DNA of 48,269 bases from Nitrososphaerales archaeon (lineage in GTDB: Archaea; Thermoproteota; Nitrososphaeria; Nitrososphaerales; Gagatemarchaeaceae): NCBI GenBank assembly GCA_030038395.1, contig JASHOZ010000065.1, positions 1-48,269 of the forward strand, in the 5' to 3' direction. The notes below the pieces were generated by a model that was not told the DNA's origin, made no database searches, and saw only the letters and a program-made list of their open reading frames with translations. Position 1 is the first letter of the stretch; every line of letters begins with the position of its first letter. A program made the translations under genes and the position numbers. This document shows positions 26,591-44,787 of the stretch, piece after piece.

Positions 26591-27994
26591 ATGTATGAAT
26601 TCGAAGGTCTAGTCGGCGAACTGCTACAGACTCACCCTGAGCTCGACAGGGAGGAGGTGATGCGGCGGATAGGGAAGAAGAAGGAGACTGTCGGAGCAGG
26701 CTATCTCACCGACCAGGGCGCGCTGTTCCTGGTCGCGGGCGAGCTCGGAGTCTCTCTGCGAAAGCCCGAATCAGCCAGCGACACGCCAATCAAAGACCTC
26801 TACATCGGGAGCAACGACGTCAACGTGGCTGCCAGGGTGCTCGCAGCCTATCCCCTCGCGGCCTACAAGAAGAAAGAAGGCGGCACAGGGAACTATCGGA
26901 GGTTCGTCCTCTTCGACGGCCAGCACTCGGTCAGGCTGACCGCCTGGGACCAGGCGGCGGAGGGGACCGTGACGGCGGGCATCACAATGGACACCCCGAT
27001 ACGAGTGACGAGTGGGTACGTCAAGCAGGGACTGGATGGGAAGCCCAACCTGAACCTAGGGAGGAAGGGCAGAGTGGAGGTCCTGTCGGACGAAAAGGTC
27101 GTCGCCAAGCTTCCCACGGTGTCGTCGGTCGCTGAGAAGCTGGCGCCCGTCTCCGAAGAAAGGCAGCTCATGGCCCTCCAGTGCTCCGTGAGCTCGGAGC
27201 CGAGATACAACGAGTTCGTGAGGGCCGACGGGTCGGAGGGGTCGCTGTACCAGTTCACGGTCGTCCGCGAAGGGGGGAAGGCGGAGTCGAGGGTGGTCAT
27301 CTGGAGTCCCTCCGCCCGCCCCGAGCTGCGGAAGGGGCAAAGAGTCCTGATCACGAACCTACGAACGAAGCGCTCGTCGGGCGGAGACTTCGAGTTTCAC
27401 GGAGATGCCGGGAGCGCGGTGGCGTTCGTGCCGAGCGGGCCCGCCGTGGAACTCAGAGTCGCGGCTTCGGGCGAGAGTTCGTCCGGCACCCTGCTCATGG
27501 CGGTGGACAGCAAGGGACGAGTATGGGCGGTGGAGAAGGAAAGGGAGGGACGGGAACCCGCGTCGGGAGAGGTCATCAGAGTCGTCCCTGACAGCGAGAG
27601 CGGCGACAGACTGTACTGCAAGTCCAAGGGCGCGCTGAGCGTGTCCGAGGCCAGCCCCTTGCCGGACCTTGAAGCCTTGGCGACGAAGCTGCGCGACGCC
27701 AAAGACGAGGGCCGCATGGTCATGGTGGAAGTGATCGCCCTCTCGCCCGGCGTAGCCGAAGACGTCGGACTGAAGGATGGTACCACCGTGAGGAAGGGAG
27801 AGCTTACCGTCGGGGACGACACGTGGGAGATGAAACTGGTCGGATGGAGGGACCTCTCATCCAAGGTGGAGGACATTCAGCCGGGACAGAGGCTCAGGGT
27901 GGTGGGCGTCACGCCGAAGACGAACAAGATGGGCACCTGCGTGCTTCAGATGTCAAACCTGACTGTGGTCGAGAAGCTGAGGGAGCGTTCTTAG
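26591..27994 (+). CDS. rpa: Replication protein A (single-stranded DNA-binding)
   Basis: 467 residues with several OB-fold units: KDLYIGSNDVNVAARVLAAYPLAAY with FVLFDGQHSVRLTAWDQAAEG, a second around residues 190-270 (ESRVVIWSPSARPELRKGQRVLI), and a C-terminal one (TWEMKLVGWRDLSSKVEDIQPGQRLRVVGV). This is the archaeal RPA type that coats single-stranded DNA in replication and repair. No zinc finger is evident. Overlaps by 4 nt the convergent small membrane-protein gene. Confidence 0.88.
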   Translation: MYEFEGLVGELLQTHPELDREEVMRRIGKKKETVGAGYLTDQGALFLVAGELGVSLRKPESASDTPIKDLYIGSNDVNVAARVLAAYPLAAYKKKEGGTGNYRRFVLFDGQHSVRLTAWDQAAEGTVTAGITMDTPIRVTSGYVKQGLDGKPNLNLGRKGRVEVLSDEKVVAKLPTVSSVAEKLAPVSEERQLMALQCSVSSEPRYNEFVRADGSEGSLYQFTVVREGGKAESRVVIWSPSARPELRKGQRVLITNLRTKRSSGGDFEFHGDAGSAVAFVPSGPAVELRVAASGESSSGTLLMAVDSKGRVWAVEKEREGREPASGEVIRVVPDSESGDRLYCKSKGALSVSEASPLPDLEALATKLRDAKDEGRMVMVEVIALSPGVAEDVGLKDGTTVRKGELTVGDDTWEMKLVGWRDLSSKVEDIQPGQRLRVVGVTPKTNKMGTCVLQMSNLTVVEKLRERS

Positions 27995-28443: not shown

Positions 28444-28520
28444 GCCGCGGTAGCTCAGCTGGTTAGAGCGTTGCCTTGGTAAGGCAAAGGTCGTGAGTCC
28501 GAATCCCACCCGCGGCTCCA
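28444..28520 (+). tRNA. tRNA-Thr(GGT), CCA encoded
   Basis: Acceptor GCCGCGG/CCGCGGC; D arm GCTCAGCTGGTTAGAGC; anticodon stem TTGCC/GGCAA with loop TTGGTAA; T stem GTGAG/CCCAC with TCCGAAT loop. Discriminator T followed by encoded CCA. TATA-like GATTAAAAG (28408-28416) lies ~30 bp upstream. No intron. Confidence 0.94.
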
Positions 28521-28531
28521 TCGCAGTGTCT

Positions 28532-30799
28532 CTATGATAACGGAGCGCTCTTCCGCGACCTGTACATGGACAGGAGTCGCGTCTCCGTGCATTCCGGGTC
28601 GAAAGGCTCGAGGATGGATGCGCACGTCCTCGCGAGCAGCTCTATGTAACGCGCTGCGTCATATGAGCTCCTTCCGTCCCAAGCGTCGAGCGGGGTGGCC
28701 CTCCTCGAGTCCCGTCCCTTGTAGTCGGTGATGACATAGCGCATTCCCTCGCCGGCGTGGAGCTTGACCCCCTCCCCTTCCAGAGTGCGCATCGCTGTGC
28801 TCTGCACGGTGCTGACGCGGTATTCCGATGGGTCCTTCGAGAGGTTGGTTGTGAAAGCTAGCTCGGCCGCAGGGACCTCGTGTCGCTCCAGAGATTCGGC
28901 GCACCTGAGGAAGACGGCGACGCAGTCGGGGACCTTCGACGCGGCCCCGGCCTTCGAGTCTGCTTGCGCGAGGAGCCTGATGATTTCCATCTGCCATTCC
29001 TTGAACGAAGGAGGCGTGTCGTGCCGCCGCGCCTCGACCCCGCGGACCTTGAGCTGTCCGTCCATCCGTACGCCGAAATATCTGTTCAGAACAGGGATTG
29101 CCGGATTCTCCCGCGACGGAAGAAAGACGATCCACTTGTACTCGCCCTCGAATGAGAGTGGGAACCCCGTACGTTCCTCGATTTCTGACCGTAGCTGCTG
29201 ATACTCGCGGTGCTCCGTAGGCTTCTCGTCTTTCTTCTTCAGCCATAGAGAATCGACTATGCCGTGCATCAGCCGGAACCCGCGCGCCTCGGCCATCCTC
29301 ATTGCGTCTACCAGAATCTTCCTGTCCCATGCGCAGACCGCGATGTGCGCGTCAATCCTCCCGAACTTCGCGTTGTTGTACCCCAGGTATCCGAAACTGC
29401 AGACCCCCAGCCACTTCATGATCTCCTGGCATGCGTCGTATCTCTCGTAGTTTGAGATGTGCTTCGCCGCGGCCTTCAGCTCCTTGTACCTGCGCCTCTT
29501 CATGACCACAATCTCCATCGCCTTCGGGACTAGGCCCTTCCTCCTCTCGCATACGTTCCAGCCGAGCTCCGGAACCCGGTTCTTCGAATCTAGACAGCAC
29601 CGGCACTTCACGGTCTCCGCTGAGATGTTCTTCCTCAGCATTATGTTGGGGTAGAGGGAGCTGAAGTCGAACTCCCCCACCCCTTCACACACGCCCATGA
29701 TGGGTTCGAAGATGAACCCGCCCCTGTCAGCGACGAGCAACTCTCTTCGGTCCTTGACGACTTCGGAGAGGGTCGGCTTCCACGGGACGAGCAGCTCGCT
29801 TCTCGAAGCGTGGTAGAACTGCAGGCTCGACAGGGCCTTGCCTATGCTCGCCCTGCTGGCCGTGTGCATGGGCATCCTGCAGACCCTGCTGAGTTCGAAG
29901 AGGCCTGCGAAGCCGGCTTCGCCGTAGGCGAATGAGGAATTGACGTCGATGTGTATCCTGCCATAGAGCTTGATCGAGGACGGCTTGTACAGAATCTTGC
30001 CGTAGCTAAAATAAGACGTGCCGTCCTTGGTGGGGAGCCTCAACGCGTTTTCGTCTCTGTCGAGCCTGAGCTGGCCGGCCATTCCGTGCGCTTCTGCCCG
30101 TTTGATTAGGTATGGAAGGAGGAACGTGTCGCCGTCTTTCGTGAGCACGAAATCCGGGTCGATCCTCCGCATCTCCCTCACCAAGCTGAGCAGCCTGTCA
30201 GGCTCGTCGCCTTCGCTGATCACGATCTTCTCGCGTTCGTGCGCGAGGATAATCTTTCCGACCATGTCGGTGAACCGGGGGATTCTCCCCAGCTTGGCGA
30301 CTTCGACGTCGACTTTCAGGCTGGTCATGCGGGGTAGCGGGTATTCGCATGCCGTCTCGTCGTCCAAGAGCTTCCACTGCAGCTCGTCGCCCGTCTGGGT
30401 CACCTCGCAGTAAGCCAGCGGAAAGACCCCGTGCTCGTACAGGTAGCTCTGGTTGGGCGGGATGTCGACGTTGTAGAGCCTGAACGCCCCGAACGGACCC
30501 ATAGTCTCTATCCTGCTTGCGACCTGCTTGGCCCTCCTCGCGTCTCTAAGCCTCGCCTCGACCACCGTGGACATGGCCGTGTCGGTGATTCTCTCGAACT
30601 TCGAGACTTCCCGCGTCAGGACGAAATCAGAGCTCGCCACTCGGAGCGGTACGGCGAGTTCAGAGATGTCGTCGGCAGCTATGAATACCGACGGGGACCA
30701 GCGGTCCACCAGCCTGTGCGTGCGGCCGTCCTCGCCCTTGAACCAGACGACCATCTCTCCAGGGCCGCCAGGATAGAGGTCAAACAGCCAGCCCCGCAT
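28532..30799 (-). CDS. B-family DNA polymerase with altered motif C (PolB2-like)
   Basis: 755 residues. Motif A is intact (DFSSLYPNIM, residues 378-387), the motif B region reads CSFGYLGYNNAKFG (467-480), but motif C is GIVDSLWL (513-520) where replicative enzymes have GDTDS: the first Asp is lost, the second kept. In the exonuclease domain only Exo I (VDVEV, 163-167) looks normal; the Exo II position reads DGDTFLLPYL, and no Exo III Y-x3-D is seen. A KCRCC...VC cysteine cluster (398-417) follows motif A. This fits the archaeal PolB2 group, linked to damage tolerance rather than bulk replication. It overlaps the upstream small gene by 20 nt as last gene of a four-gene operon. Confidence 0.85.
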   Translation of the reverse strand: MRGWLFDLYPGGPGEMVVWFKGEDGRTHRLVDRWSPSVFIAADDISELAVPLRVASSDFVLTREVSKFERITDTAMSTVVEARLRDARRAKQVASRIETMGPFGAFRLYNVDIPPNQSYLYEHGVFPLAYCEVTQTGDELQWKLLDDETACEYPLPRMTSLKVDVEVAKLGRIPRFTDMVGKIILAHEREKIVISEGDEPDRLLSLVREMRRIDPDFVLTKDGDTFLLPYLIKRAEAHGMAGQLRLDRDENALRLPTKDGTSYFSYGKILYKPSSIKLYGRIHIDVNSSFAYGEAGFAGLFELSRVCRMPMHTASRASIGKALSSLQFYHASRSELLVPWKPTLSEVVKDRRELLVADRGGFIFEPIMGVCEGVGEFDFSSLYPNIMLRKNISAETVKCRCCLDSKNRVPELGWNVCERRKGLVPKAMEIVVMKRRRYKELKAAAKHISNYERYDACQEIMKWLGVCSFGYLGYNNAKFGRIDAHIAVCAWDRKILVDAMRMAEARGFRLMHGIVDSLWLKKKDEKPTEHREYQQLRSEIEERTGFPLSFEGEYKWIVFLPSRENPAIPVLNRYFGVRMDGQLKVRGVEARRHDTPPSFKEWQMEIIRLLAQADSKAGAASKVPDCVAVFLRCAESLERHEVPAAELAFTTNLSKDPSEYRVSTVQSTAMRTLEGEGVKLHAGEGMRYVITDYKGRDSRRATPLDAWDGRSSYDAARYIELLARTCASILEPFDPECTETRLLSMYRSRKSAPLS

Positions 30800-31046
30800 T
30801 CCTCTCGACCTTCATCTTCTCGATTTCACCGGCCAGGCGTACGATGGTCTTGTGCTGCATCAGCAGCAGGCTCATGAAGAGCGCTTCGCTCAGGAAAGGC
30901 GAGCCTCTCGCCTGCATCGCGGGGAAATATTCGTAACAGAGCCTGAGCATCTCGTCGAACAGCTCCTTGTCTTCTGTTCTCAGTGCGTTTGCAAAGCGTC
31001 CCCATTCTCCAAGTTCATCGATGACTTCGGCGTCGAAGAGCGTCAT
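30780..31046 (-). CDS. Small helical protein B of the PolB2-like operon
   Basis: 88 residues, all-helical in appearance: VIDELGEWGRFANALRTEDKE, then FDEMLRLCYEYFPAMQARG and FLSEALFMSLLLMQHKTIVRL. It is clearly related to the preceding gene product (shared EW-x2-F-x2-AL, FD-x-ML, and a His-Lys followed by a helical tail). ATG overlaps the upstream stop (ATGA) and its 3' end overlaps the polymerase gene, so it is translationally coupled. No known family recognised; likely a structural or adaptor subunit of the polymerase complex (inference). Confidence 0.75.
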   Translation of the reverse strand: MTLFDAEVIDELGEWGRFANALRTEDKELFDEMLRLCYEYFPAMQARGSPFLSEALFMSLLLMQHKTIVRLAGEIEKMKVERNAGLAV

Positions 31047-31312
31047 TTCCCGTCGCCTTTCTGCCCGAGTTCAGAGACATGCAGAAGAGAACGCGCGAGC
31101 ATCTTGTAATGATGGAAGATTATCGCCATGCCCATCCCTTCGAATCTTGATGGCCTGGTGGCTGCGGACGAGGCCGAGAGGTACAGCCTAGCGGTGCCGA
31201 GCATGTCGTCGAAGACTGCCCTGTCGTGCTTCGGGAGGGCTGCCCTGAACGCGCTCCATTCCGCTATCTCCTGAGCCTCGGCTATCCTGAACGACGGCGT
31301 CGTCCTTCCCAT
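31043..31312 (-). CDS. Small helical protein A of the PolB2-like operon
   Basis: 89 residues from ATG at 31312 (MGRTTPSFRIAEAQEIAEWS...). Aligns by eye with small protein B: EWSAFRAALPKHDRAVFDDML against EWGRFANALRTEDKELFDEML, and a C-terminal helix with HHYKMLARSL against MQHKTIVRLA. The ATG overlaps the RadA-like stop (TGATG) and the stop overlaps the next ATG. I chose this start over a longer frame that reads back into the RadA-like gene in another phase. Function unknown. Confidence 0.7.
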   Translation of the reverse strand: MGRTTPSFRIAEAQEIAEWSAFRAALPKHDRAVFDDMLGTARLYLSASSAATRPSRFEGMGMAIIFHHYKMLARSLLHVSELGQKGDGK

Positions 31313-32244
31313 CAGCAGGGTGCCCCCCGCTTCGCAGACTTCAGGAGCTGGTTCAGCGTGAAGTTGGAAGTCGTCGGCGGCTTTGTGGGATGCTTGACGA
31401 GCCCGGCCTGCACCCTGTCGCGCGACGATGTCAGCGAGATTCCGACGTCGGCCCATTCCATGACGGCGTCGTCGTGTCCGTTGGGCGACGCGAGCGCGAC
31501 TACGACCAGCGAGTGCTTCAATCGTCCAATCCCGTCTTTGATCGATTTCAGGAGCCACCTTGTCTCCCTCTCTTCCTGCTCGGGTTCGCTGAACGTGCCA
31601 AGCGGATCCGAGATCACGACGAGTTTAGCCGCATGGTCTTCAACGGCGTCGGCCAGGCGTCTTGAAACGAAGTCTGCGAGCTGGTAGTTTGTGAAGATGC
31701 GGCAGGTGGCTACCCTCCTCATCGCCACGGCAGGCTTCAGGCCGCGCCACTTTGCGAATAGAGAAAAGAGATACAGGTCTGACCGGTTCCCGCCGTCGAT
31801 GAAAAAGACCGTGGAGTCTAGGCCGCCCATATCTAGCGGGAGTTGGGCCCTGAACGTCATCAGTTCCGCCACGGCAGGCGCAGCGTCGCCTTTCATGACT
31901 ATCAGGCGCCGGGATGAAAGCGGCCTCATCATCGAATCCAGCTGTGGAAAACCCAGCGAGAAGTGCGGAAGCGACGAAGCCAGATAGAACTCCGGGCGCA
32001 CTGTTCGGATGGTCGCAGTCTCTGTTGGGCTGAAACCAGGCCTGGTCACGGGCGCCTGTAACAGCCTGCGTCCTGCGCCACCTTCCAGCTCGCGTCCGCA
32101 TCCGCGGCAGCATCTCCGGAACGGTTGGACGGCTTCGTCAGTCGACCTCGGGCTTATCTCGGTCAGAGGGATTCTGGCGCAGCTTGCGCAGTAGCATTCG
32201 GAGCGCTCCCAGTAGTCTCCTTGCTCGAGAACGTGGTGGAGCAT
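31312..32244 (-). CDS. RadA/RecA-like protein without a functional Walker A
   Basis: 310 residues. An N-terminal zinc ribbon is likely (C17-x-C19-x2-C22 and C45-C46-x2-C49). The core resembles the RecA fold of RadA: GFPQLDSMMRP, strand LIVMKGD, QLPLDMGGLDSTVFFIDGG, and LVVISDPLGTF as the Walker B strand. Where RadA has a GxxxxGK[TS] P-loop, this protein has GDAAPAVAEL (119-128), without Lys or Thr/Ser, so ATP hydrolysis is unlikely. It opens the four-gene PolB2-like operon; a TATA box (ATTATATT, 32270-32277) is ~29 bp upstream. A structural role like bacterial ImuA is my inference. Confidence 0.75.
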   Translation of the reverse strand: MLHHVLEQGDYWERSECYCASCARIPLTEISPRSTDEAVQPFRRCCRGCGRELEGGAGRRLLQAPVTRPGFSPTETATIRTVRPEFYLASSLPHFSLGFPQLDSMMRPLSSRRLIVMKGDAAPAVAELMTFRAQLPLDMGGLDSTVFFIDGGNRSDLYLFSLFAKWRGLKPAVAMRRVATCRIFTNYQLADFVSRRLADAVEDHAAKLVVISDPLGTFSEPEQEERETRWLLKSIKDGIGRLKHSLVVVALASPNGHDDAVMEWADVGISLTSSRDRVQAGLVKHPTKPPTTSNFTLNQLLKSAKRGAPC

Positions 32245-32269
32245 GGCCTTTGGTTTGAGGCCCCTTTGG

Positions 32270-32277
32270 AATATAAT
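32270..32277 (-). promoter_or_regulatory. TATA box of the RadA-like/PolB2-like operon
   Basis: ATTATATT on the minus strand, ~29 bp before the ATG at 32244. It is the only promoter-like element upstream of the four overlapping genes, so they are probably one near-leaderless transcript. Confidence 0.5.
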
Positions 32278-32386
32278 GCGCGAGAGACTGTAAGCGATTT
32301 TGGCGAAGGGAGACGCACGAAAGTGTCGAGGTGAAGAATCAGGTTACCAAGATTTTTAACTCAAATTCTGAGCGTGCCGAGACGGC

Positions 32387-32471
32387 GCGGGGGTCGCCCA
32401 GCCTGGTCAACGGCGCGAGGCTCAGGACCTCGTCCCTCAGGGGTTCGTGGGTTCGAATCCCACCCCCCGCA
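32387..32471 (+). tRNA. tRNA-Leu(CAG)
   Basis: Class II tRNA. Acceptor GCGGGGG/CCCCCGC, anticodon stem CGAGG/CCTCG with loop CTCAGGA, variable arm TCCCTCAGGGG, T arm GTGGGTTCGAATCCCAC. No intron, CCA not encoded. The 3' part is nearly identical to the tRNA-Leu(CAA) in this window. A TATA-like ATTTTTAAC (32352-32360) lies ~30 bp upstream. Confidence 0.95.
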
Positions 32472-32623
32472 CTTCATGCCATTGGTCAGAATCCCGGTGT
32501 GTCAGAAGCTCCGCAGCTAGCAATTGGTGAAAGTCCCAGATTGCGGGTCCGTCTCTGGCTGCCTGCCTGAAGAAATATGCAAACACATATTTGCCCTCTC
32601 GCTACTTCTCTAACTCACTGCAA

Positions 32624-43200: not shown

Positions 43201-44394
43201 TCAGGTGATTGTGCCGAATGTGGTGTCTTCGGACAGCGTCTTCTCCAGCGTCTCGCTTCCGATGAGCAGGTGGATCCTCTTCGTTCTCCCCCGCCTCCCC
43301 TTGCTCACGACGGACGCCTCGATCAGGCCGAGCAGGTCGAGTTCCGCCAGTATCCCGCTGACCCGCCGCTGCGTGAGCGCTTCGAGGCCCGTCCTTCTGC
43401 AGAGGCCGTTGTAGGAGAGGTAGAGCTCCCCCGTGTTCGTCCCCTCCCTGAATCTCGAGACTGCGAGCAGGACGGCTTTGTTCTGCACCGGGAGGGAACG
43501 GATGGCCTCCTCGACGCGGTCGTGTTCCATCTTGTCCGAAGCCCGCCTGATGCAAGTCTCGTCGATTTCCTTGAGCCCCTCCCGTTCGGCGACCTCGCCG
43601 GCTATCCTCAGCAGGTCTATGGCCCGTCTCGCGTCGCCGTGCTCAGAACCGGCCATCGCCGCGCAGAGGCTCACCGCAGCGGGGGACGCCGCCTTCGGGC
43701 TGAACGCCATCTGTGCCCTCTCCGTCAGTATCTCCCTGAGCTCATCGACCGTGTACGGCGGGAACACGAGCTCCTCCTCGCTCAGACTGCTGAGGACCCT
43801 GGGGTCGAGCTCGTCCTTGAACTTCAGGTCGTTGGAGATGCCCACCAGCGACAGGAAGCCCGGCGCGAGCCTGTCCCCCGACCTCGTGAGCTCGTAGAGG
43901 AGGTTGTCGCCGTACGCCTTGACGAGGTAGTCGATTTCATCCAGGACGAGTATGACCTGCTTGCTGCTGGCCCTCACGCTGTCGCAAATCCTCTCGATGA
44001 CCTCGCCGATCGAAAGCCCGGTGAACGGTATCTGCTTGTCGACGGGTAGGTCCACGAACTTTGCGAGCTCGGCCAGCGTCCTATACTCGGTCGCGGATAT
44101 CCGCGTGTTGACGTATGCGGAGATGAGCGCGCTGGAGCCTGCCTCCGCCTTCAGCTTCCCGAGGACGTACCGCGTGACGGCCGTCTTCCCTGTCCCAGTC
44201 TTCCCGTACAGGAGGAGGTTGGACGGCTTCGAGTCGTGGAGCACGGGGGCCAGGACCTCGGCCACCGCCCTGGTCTGCTCGTCGCGGAAGGGCAGGCTTT
44301 GTGGGATGAAGTCGGGACTCAGGGCCTTCCTGTCCGTGAATAGCGGCTTCCCTTGTTTTGCCCTGTGGAAGATCTCGTCGATGCTGCGGGGCAA
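43201..44394 (-). CDS. cdc6: Orc1/Cdc6 origin-recognition protein
   Basis: 397 residues. AAA+ core with Walker A YGKTGTGKTAVTRY, Walker B LVLDEID (in VILVLDEIDYLV), sensor 1 ISNDLKF and sensor 2 GDARRAIDLLRIAGE, then a C-terminal winged helix (LCRRTGLEALTQRRVSGILAELD). It binds ORB repeats at the origin next door and loads MCM. TTG start at 44394; the TATA box GCTTAACTA (~44417-44425) is ~27 bp upstream and adjoins the first ORB-like repeat. Confidence 0.96.
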   Translation of the reverse strand: MPRSIDEIFHRAKQGKPLFTDRKALSPDFIPQSLPFRDEQTRAVAEVLAPVLHDSKPSNLLLYGKTGTGKTAVTRYVLGKLKAEAGSSALISAYVNTRISATEYRTLAELAKFVDLPVDKQIPFTGLSIGEVIERICDSVRASSKQVILVLDEIDYLVKAYGDNLLYELTRSGDRLAPGFLSLVGISNDLKFKDELDPRVLSSLSEEELVFPPYTVDELREILTERAQMAFSPKAASPAAVSLCAAMAGSEHGDARRAIDLLRIAGEVAEREGLKEIDETCIRRASDKMEHDRVEEAIRSLPVQNKAVLLAVSRFREGTNTGELYLSYNGLCRRTGLEALTQRRVSGILAELDLLGLIEASVVSKGRRGRTKRIHLLIGSETLEKTLSEDTTFGTIT

Positions 44395-44398
44395 TTGG

Positions 44399-44416
44399 AT
44401 TCAGTGGAAACACTGG
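44399..44416 (+). repeat. ORB-like element 1, next to the cdc6 promoter
   Basis: ATTCAGTGGAAACACTGG. The core TTCaGTGGAAAC is recognisable and its right part touches the cdc6 TATA box, so bound Orc1/Cdc6 could block its own transcription. Confidence 0.6.
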
Positions 44417-44449
44417 TTAGTTAAGCCCTCCGCCCCCATGTTTCGGATG

Positions 44450-44462
44450 TTTCCAGTGGAAA
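44450..44462 (+). repeat. ORB-like core element 2
   Basis: TTTCCAGTGGAAA, the core repeat with symmetrical flanks, without a G-run directly after it. A G-run (GGGGGCGG on the minus strand) is ~15 nt away on the left. Confidence 0.6.
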
Positions 44463-44482
44463 GGCCTTGGCGGAGCTGGTGT

Positions 44483-44492
44483 CTTCCAGTGG
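44483..44492 (+). repeat. ORB-like half element 3
   Basis: CTTCCAGTGG; only the left part of the repeat is conserved. Confidence 0.45.
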
Positions 44493-44606
44493 TGATAACG
44501 GCCTGCTCTAGGAGCGCGAACGAGTCGACATATACACTGAGGTCGACTACGGATGGCTTCTACTGAACTTGACGCTGACCTCCAGGCGACTCCCGAACGG
44601 CGCGAC

Positions 44607-44628
44607 CTCCAGTGGAAGCACAGGGGGT
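44607..44628 (+). repeat. ORB element 4, full form
   Basis: CTCCAGTGGAAGCA followed by CAGGGGGT. It agrees with the archaeal ORB layout of dyad plus downstream G-string and with the opposite-strand copy at 44741-44761. Confidence 0.85.
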
Positions 44629-44740
44629 GGGGGGTCGCAGTGAAGCTCTGTGAACCAAGTGCAAGCCGGGCCAAGTCACCAGCCAAGGGGCCACAAAGGA
44701 GGCTCGTACGTCCATGCGGAACGGAAAGAGGCTGATTCCG

Positions 44741-44761
44741 ACCCCTCTGTTTCCACTGGAG
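44741..44761 (-). repeat. ORB element 5, full form, inverted
   Basis: On the minus strand CTCCAGTGGAAACA followed by GAGGGGT. It points toward element 4, giving the pair of facing ORBs often seen around an unwinding element. Confidence 0.85.
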
Positions 44762-44787
44762 CCAGTATTCTGGTTTTCATTTTTTCG

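Follow-up and report, generated by a model that had tools for sequence, protein, structure and literature searches.

The window (the whole stretch of archaeal DNA analyzed, 48,269 nucleotides in length) carries on its minus strand four genes that encode an inactivated RadA homolog (iRadA), two small proteins (PPB2a and PPB2b) and a PolB2 DNA polymerase (Table 1). An earlier reading of this DNA, made from the sequence only, had described serial overlap of these genes behind one TATA box, and all four open reading frames are indeed present with the overlaps as claimed. At the TGATG junction, the iRadA stop codon TGA (31314-31312) and the PPB2a ATG at 31312 have one A in common; at the ATGA junction, the PPB2b ATG at 31046 is overlapped by the PPB2a stop codon (31045-31043); and the PolB2 ATG at 30799 lies inside PPB2b, which creates a 20-nt overlap. 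The iRadA, PPB2 and PolB2 genes are adjacent and on one strand from 28532 to 32244, the arrangement by which a mutasome operon is recognized. The operon is flanked by tRNA-Thr and tRNA-Leu genes, and the mobile-element origin that these flanks suggested was rejected, since in many relatives the operon likewise has the tRNA-Leu sequence immediately upstream and the tRNA flank is therefore old synteny. On the opposite strand, under 1 kb away from the operon's 3' end, is a gene for an RPA-like single-strand DNA-binding protein, assigned by the replication factor A families.

Table 1. Positions of the mutasome operon, its promoter elements and other features of the window.
Feature	Position	Strand	Description
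RPA-like single-strand DNA-binding protein gene	26591-27994	plus	
tRNA-Thr	28444-28520		operon flank
PolB2 DNA polymerase	28532-30799	minus	755 aa; motif A DFSSLYP; motif C IVDS
PPB2b	30780-31046	minus	88 aa; PPB2a paralog without MGRT arm
PPB2a	31043-31312	minus	small protein with MGRT arm as defined in PMC11791011
iRadA	31312-32244	minus	310 aa; RadA homolog without Walker A; N-terminal CxxC...CxxC, putative zinc ribbon
TATA box TTATAT	32271-32276	minus	49 nt downstream of box start; 32 nt before iRadA ATG
Promoter box CACTTTCGTGCGTCTCCC	32308-32325	minus	includes hexamer ACTTTC (32324-32319)
tRNA-Leu	32387-32472		operon flank
Orc1/Cdc6, Orc1-1 type	43201-44394	minus	~11 kb from mutasome operon; best match Sulfolobus Cdc6-1
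Cluster of TTTCCASTGGAA repeats	44399-44762		adjoins Orc1-1-type gene

The protein assignments of the sequence-only reading, namely a RadA-like pseudo-ATPase, two small paralogs and a PolB2-like polymerase, all held under closer analysis. For iRadA, both a RadA profile and a fold match were obtained, and no Walker A motif is left. Searched as a single sequence, iRadA has diverged too far for a Pfam assignment (Rad51 at E 0.005, under the cut-off), and the 17-sequence profile searched against solved chains matched Pyrococcus-type RadA at 2.3e-11 and crenarchaeal RadA (2bke) at 5e-8. Its AlphaFold model (mean pLDDT 73, with a core mostly >80) matches RadA/Rad51/Dmc1 folds at 2.5e-14. In place of the RadA helical domain, the N-terminus is a low-confidence region of the model containing the CxxC...CxxC pattern, of which C19, C22 and C46 are invariant in 17/17 sequences. 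This putative zinc ribbon is a difference from the published mutasome, whose main-text description (PMC11791011) makes no mention of one. At five loci of relatives (L046, L054, L055, L056 and L068), a full-length RadA with Walker motifs is encoded directly beside the iRadA-PolB2 operon or within ~2 kb of it, and several of these genes represent a second type of RadA that differs from the common one.

PPB2a and PPB2b (88-89 aa) matched no Pfam family, and profiles built on each of the two find both. PPB2a starts with MGRTTPSFR, the arm named in PMC11791011, and PPB2b has no such arm; more generally, a [MVL]GR[TA] start is present in every full-length PPB2a and in no PPB2b. In the PPB2 tree all 26 armless copies fall into one clade (support 100/100, on a short alignment), which indicates that armed and armless copies have both been retained since one duplication. 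Such long coexistence side by side argues for a division of labor within one trimer. Since only one of the three PPB2 arms is inserted in the PolB2-iRadA cleft in the published model (PMC11791011), we prefer a mixed arrangement, and on this analysis the PPB2 trimer is probably mixed, with one armed subunit. At two loci (L042 and L066) the PPB2 genes are broken over several frames and PolB2 is still open, reflecting either decay or assembly error.

The polymerase is a true B-family enzyme (Pfam DNA_pol_B, 1.5e-21), with a second, weak Pfam match to an exonuclease domain. Motif A (DFSSLYP) is intact, and in motif C (IVD = residues 514-516) IVDS replaces DTDS, so that the first Asp is lost and the second retained. 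Ile-(Val/Ile)-Asp instead of Asp-Thr-Asp, a hallmark of PolB2, was found in 36 of the 41 polymerases in our motif table. According to the same table, the Exo I DxE residues are present in the window's PolB2 and variable among relatives, Exo III is degenerate, and the exonuclease motifs are decayed in most relatives. The D(K/R) loop motif that contacts the PPB2 arm reads LDRD in the window's enzyme, and its R248 is invariant in the alignment (A1). A candidate PCNA-binding motif at the C-terminus (ETRLLSMY) was discarded as weak and not conserved. In some relatives, PolB2 carries an intein in motif B, before CFGYLG (L051:4670-8545, L070:1709-5752 and L069:5196-8201); by Pfam these measure ~537 aa with a LAGLIDADG endonuclease in L051 and L070, and ~204 aa without an endonuclease in L069. 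The RadA and second Orc1 reading frames are also much enlarged in the genus of these carriers, probably by inteins.

A search for the polymerase over 151 genomes of the window's GTDB order returned relatives in 149, many of them weak matches that are other B-family enzymes, and gene neighborhoods were counted in 40 fetched PolB2 loci of this order. The sequence-only reading had expected the small proteins and the RadA-like protein to co-occur with this polymerase type, as they do: iRadA and PPB2 are encoded near PolB2 at 34 of the 40 loci. At 28 of the 40, both PPB2 copies are present and the order is iRadA-PPB2a-PPB2b-PolB2, a recurrence among homologous loci that indicates the arrangement is not due to chance. 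Fusions of iRadA to PPB2 were seen at 5 of the 40, and at 6 of the 40 (L044, L053, L062-L064 and L069) no recognizable partner was found within ~5 kb of PolB2. Among the Nitrososphaeraceae, PolB2 lacks a recognizable iRadA or PPB2 within ~5 kb at L053, L062, L063, L064, L415 and L428. Five loci (L055-L058 and L068) represent a second PolB2 lineage in the order, with an intact DxD and an iRadA-PPB2 fusion, in agreement with the published TACK group. A search inside these fusions gave no MGRT-like string, unlike those reported in the mutasome paper. The relatives that carry names are MAGs of Thaumarchaeota and Nitrososphaerales; Candidatus Gagatemarchaeum stordalenia (L403, the contig of G130) is a member of the window's family.

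Operons of this kind have been described before. Makarova (2014; PMC4104785) reported a conserved operon of PolB2, arCOG07300 and an inactivated RadA and suggested a complex, and Timinskas (2025; PMC11791011) named PPB2 and iRadA, modeled the heteropentamer PolB2:iRadA:PPB2(3), noted PPB2 duplications with the MGRT arm on one copy only, and compared the mutasome with Pol V (UmuC-UmuD'2-RecA). The Sulfolobus islandicus enzyme, Dpo2, can be induced by DNA damage and gives rise to targeted mutagenesis (PMC7390963), so the role of PolB2 in the Sulfolobus damage response, which the sequence-only reading had invoked as published knowledge, is indeed in the literature; PMC8764526 describes Dpo2 as an extender in translesion synthesis. 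The operon in the window shares with the PolB2 mutasome operon (arCOG07763/04294/08101, arCOG07300 and PolB2/Dpo2) the same genes in the same order, iRadA-PPB2-PolB2, the same PPB2 duplication with one MGRT arm, and the same loss in motif C. A further published trait, an orc1/cdc6 gene within a few genes (an enrichment rather than a requirement), is absent here, the nearest Orc1 gene being 11 kb away. Judged by its sequence, the operon is one more sequenced copy of an archaeal damage-tolerance machine that had been described before. The damage-tolerance or mutagenesis complex proposed for it earlier thus fits the published PolB2 work, but had already been put forward in 2014 and 2025. The operon provides a clear example, from a non-model lineage near Gagatemarchaeum, of a mutasome known mostly from models.

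The earlier comparison with the bacterial ImuA-ImuB-DnaE2 mutasome stands as an analogy of logic, in that a RecA-fold protein, an adaptor and an error-prone polymerase are encoded together, but no ImuB or DnaE2 homolog is present. ImuB is a Y-family-like protein and DnaE2 belongs to family C, whereas the polymerase here belongs to family B, and there is no homology between the systems except the distant RecA fold. The predicted complex also resembles Escherichia coli Pol V, where a low-fidelity polymerase, a small helper oligomer and a RecA-family protein come together in one complex under damage control; it differs in that the polymerase family (Y) and helper of Pol V are unrelated to those here, and RecA is an active ATPase.

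With the operon itself of a described type, the part worth following is its promoter box. The consensus CACTTTCR-N5/7-CTCYCYC lies upstream of iRadA, is common to the loci of the genus, and precedes a TTAWAT box by ~50 nt; 16 other mutasome promoters have TTAWAT at a comparable distance. We found no earlier description of this box in the literature. The pattern CACTTTCGNNNGNCTCCCT has a single match in the window, at the mutasome promoter box, and the strict pattern CACTTTCGN{3,6}TCTC has 2 sites in the 1.49-Mb assembly (reversed control, 0): one at the mutasome operon and one ~60 nt before the assigned start of the canonical radA. A two-block matrix whose training set was 17 mutasome promoters only was also run over both strands of radA and lhr loci from the genus, ~4 kb per locus. 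For radA, 10 of 13 genomes had their top match no more than 220 nt upstream of the gene, and for lhr this was so in 20 of 22; at the other 5 radA or lhr loci the upstream site ranks second. Because related promoters are not independent, these counts, like all others given here, overstate significance. The distance from box to TATA is 49 nt at the mutasome operon and ~28 nt at radA and lhr. The matrix was applied to the radA and lhr loci. The regulon of the window's own genome was sampled by patterns, and there sepF and pcna, whose domains were tested on the proteins of relatives, have the box in front of them too. Gagatemarchaeum and further genera of the family lack the mutasome box, which is confined to the window's genus and one neighboring genus.

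A further place where the element recurs is a second orc1/cdc6 gene. ACTTTCR-N-CCTCT or a close variant precedes its start in nearly all complete loci of the genus; in the window's own genome the gene lies at G000:C48 (L300, L342) and carries the box in its own promoter. The hexamer is absent at one divergent second-orc1 locus (L323), and genomes whose second orc1 has the box do not carry it at their origin-linked Orc1 genes. The best solved relative of the second Orc1 is 1fnn, and that of the Orc1 encoded in the window is given in Table 1. The latter was rejected as a damage regulator, as it is of the Orc1-1 type, sits beside origin-like repeats and lacks the box; together with these repeats it is likely to mark a replication origin. 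In several relatives as well, PolB2 and an Orc1 gene are 8-28 kb apart. Across the phylum, a sample of 29 Orc1-2-like promoters included 12 with ACTTTCR-N4-8-CYC (shuffle mean 0.06, antisense 0), 10 of the 12 from one family.

These observations recall the Sulfolobales. The UV-inducible ups promoters of S. acidocaldarius require A(N)TTTC, which also occurs at cdc6-2 (PMC5817253), and Orc1-2 leaves a footprint on ANTTTC at its own promoter (PMC9738581). In both lineages the hexamer (ACTTTC here) lies upstream of a TATA box, precedes a second, non-initiator orc1/cdc6 gene, and has DNA repair genes among its targets. From the primer sequences in PMC5817253, the upsX promoter reads ATTTTCAAACCACACTCTCTGTATATTTT, so the CTCTC half is also present in Sulfolobus upsX, 8 nt downstream of ATTTTC. 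On the other hand, the box described here is longer and two-part, with a larger and variable spacing to TATA (~21 nt in upsX); the Sulfolobales hexamer is placed 39-44 nt before the transcription start, a distance for which the box-to-TATA spacings given above are the known counterpart here. The gene set also differs (radA, lhr, the PolB2 operon, pcna and sepF), and the regulator here is a candidate.

Overall, we consider it probable that the operon encodes a PolB2 translesion-synthesis mutasome under a damage-activated, Orc1-2-type regulon. The regulon is inferred from the promoter box, whose presence at the mutasome operon, radA and other replication and repair promoters points to SOS-like control. 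The operon promoter would be activated by DNA damage or replication stress. The signal would act on the ACTTTC-containing box, and its most likely carrier is the second Orc1/Cdc6 protein, whose own gene has the box and which is a putative counterpart of Sulfolobales Orc1-2. The four overlapping cistrons would be translated in a coupled fashion. In the PPB2 trimer, probably mixed, the MGRT arm of one armed PPB2a would reach between PolB2 and iRadA, the remaining places being taken by armless PPB2b. Unable to use ATP, iRadA would dock on PolB2 in the way that successive RadA subunits dock on each other, and would thereby deliver PolB2 to primer ends, either at stalled forks or at RadA filaments. 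There PolB2 would extend primers that are mismatched or blocked by a lesion, with mutations as the price.

A less likely alternative accepts the PolB2 mutasome and assigns the box to a growth or cell-cycle (replication) regulon, in which replication and division genes are made in one phase. The box does occur at pcna, sepF and a cdc6-like gene besides radA and lhr, and UV-repressed and unregulated genes of S. acidocaldarius also have the hexamer (PMC5817253). However, lhr and radA are repair genes, and PolB2 and its partners are damage-induced in the Sulfolobales (PMC11791011, PMC7390963). We think it unlikely that the box is simply a strong core-promoter type of the genus, either an extended BRE or an upstream activator, with no common regulator. 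Its second half is C/T-rich and near the TATA box, as that account would have it, and the loose pattern gives 12 sites in the window's own genome, not more than the reversed control, so that weight is placed only on the strict pattern and the matrix test. Yet the two strict sites against none in the control, the several-fold excess of CACTTTCRN{4,8}YCYCYC over control in 12 genomes, and the lack of a box at origin-linked Orc1 genes all speak against this account. Least probable of all is that a largely inactivated PolB2 acts with iRadA as a regulatory or structural factor that remodels stalled forks, a possibility raised in PMC4104785 and in keeping with the lost Asp of motif C and the decayed exonuclease motifs of most relatives, because motif A and the second Asp are retained in the window's PolB2, Dpo2 is needed for targeted mutagenesis (PMC7390963), and PMC8764526 presents it as a translesion extender.

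If the box is a damage element under an Orc1-2-type regulator, as we favor, it would explain how Nitrososphaeria coordinate damage tolerance, name a candidate regulator for this response, and extend the Orc1-2 damage response beyond the Sulfolobales. Although we lean somewhat against so broad a claim, it is conceivable that an SOS-like Orc1-2/ACTTTC regulon is common to Sulfolobales and Nitrososphaeria, and hence ancestral to much of the phylum, with the PolB2 mutasome, radA, lhr, orc1-2, pcna and sepF as its Nitrososphaerales targets.

Several other promoters share these or comparable elements. Recurrent box targets include genes that we read as NurA-like (no Pfam match), and a conserved 175-aa protein (MASSETDVKRAAETKLWLEGR...) has an ACTTTC box with an AT-rich, TATA-like stretch in 7 genomes of the genus (L267, L281, L293-L296 and L298). 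The promoter of a PadR-type regulator also matches the strict pattern and may be either a chance hit or a true member. In one genus of the Nitrososphaeraceae, the mutasome operon, a second radA and a radical-SAM gene are linked by a different C-rich box, CCCCCTCCCCC-N-GTGC; ACCCCCTCCCCC-N-GTGC occurs at L049, L080, L352, L355, L356, L358 and L359, and the radical-SAM gene resembles photoproduct lyases.
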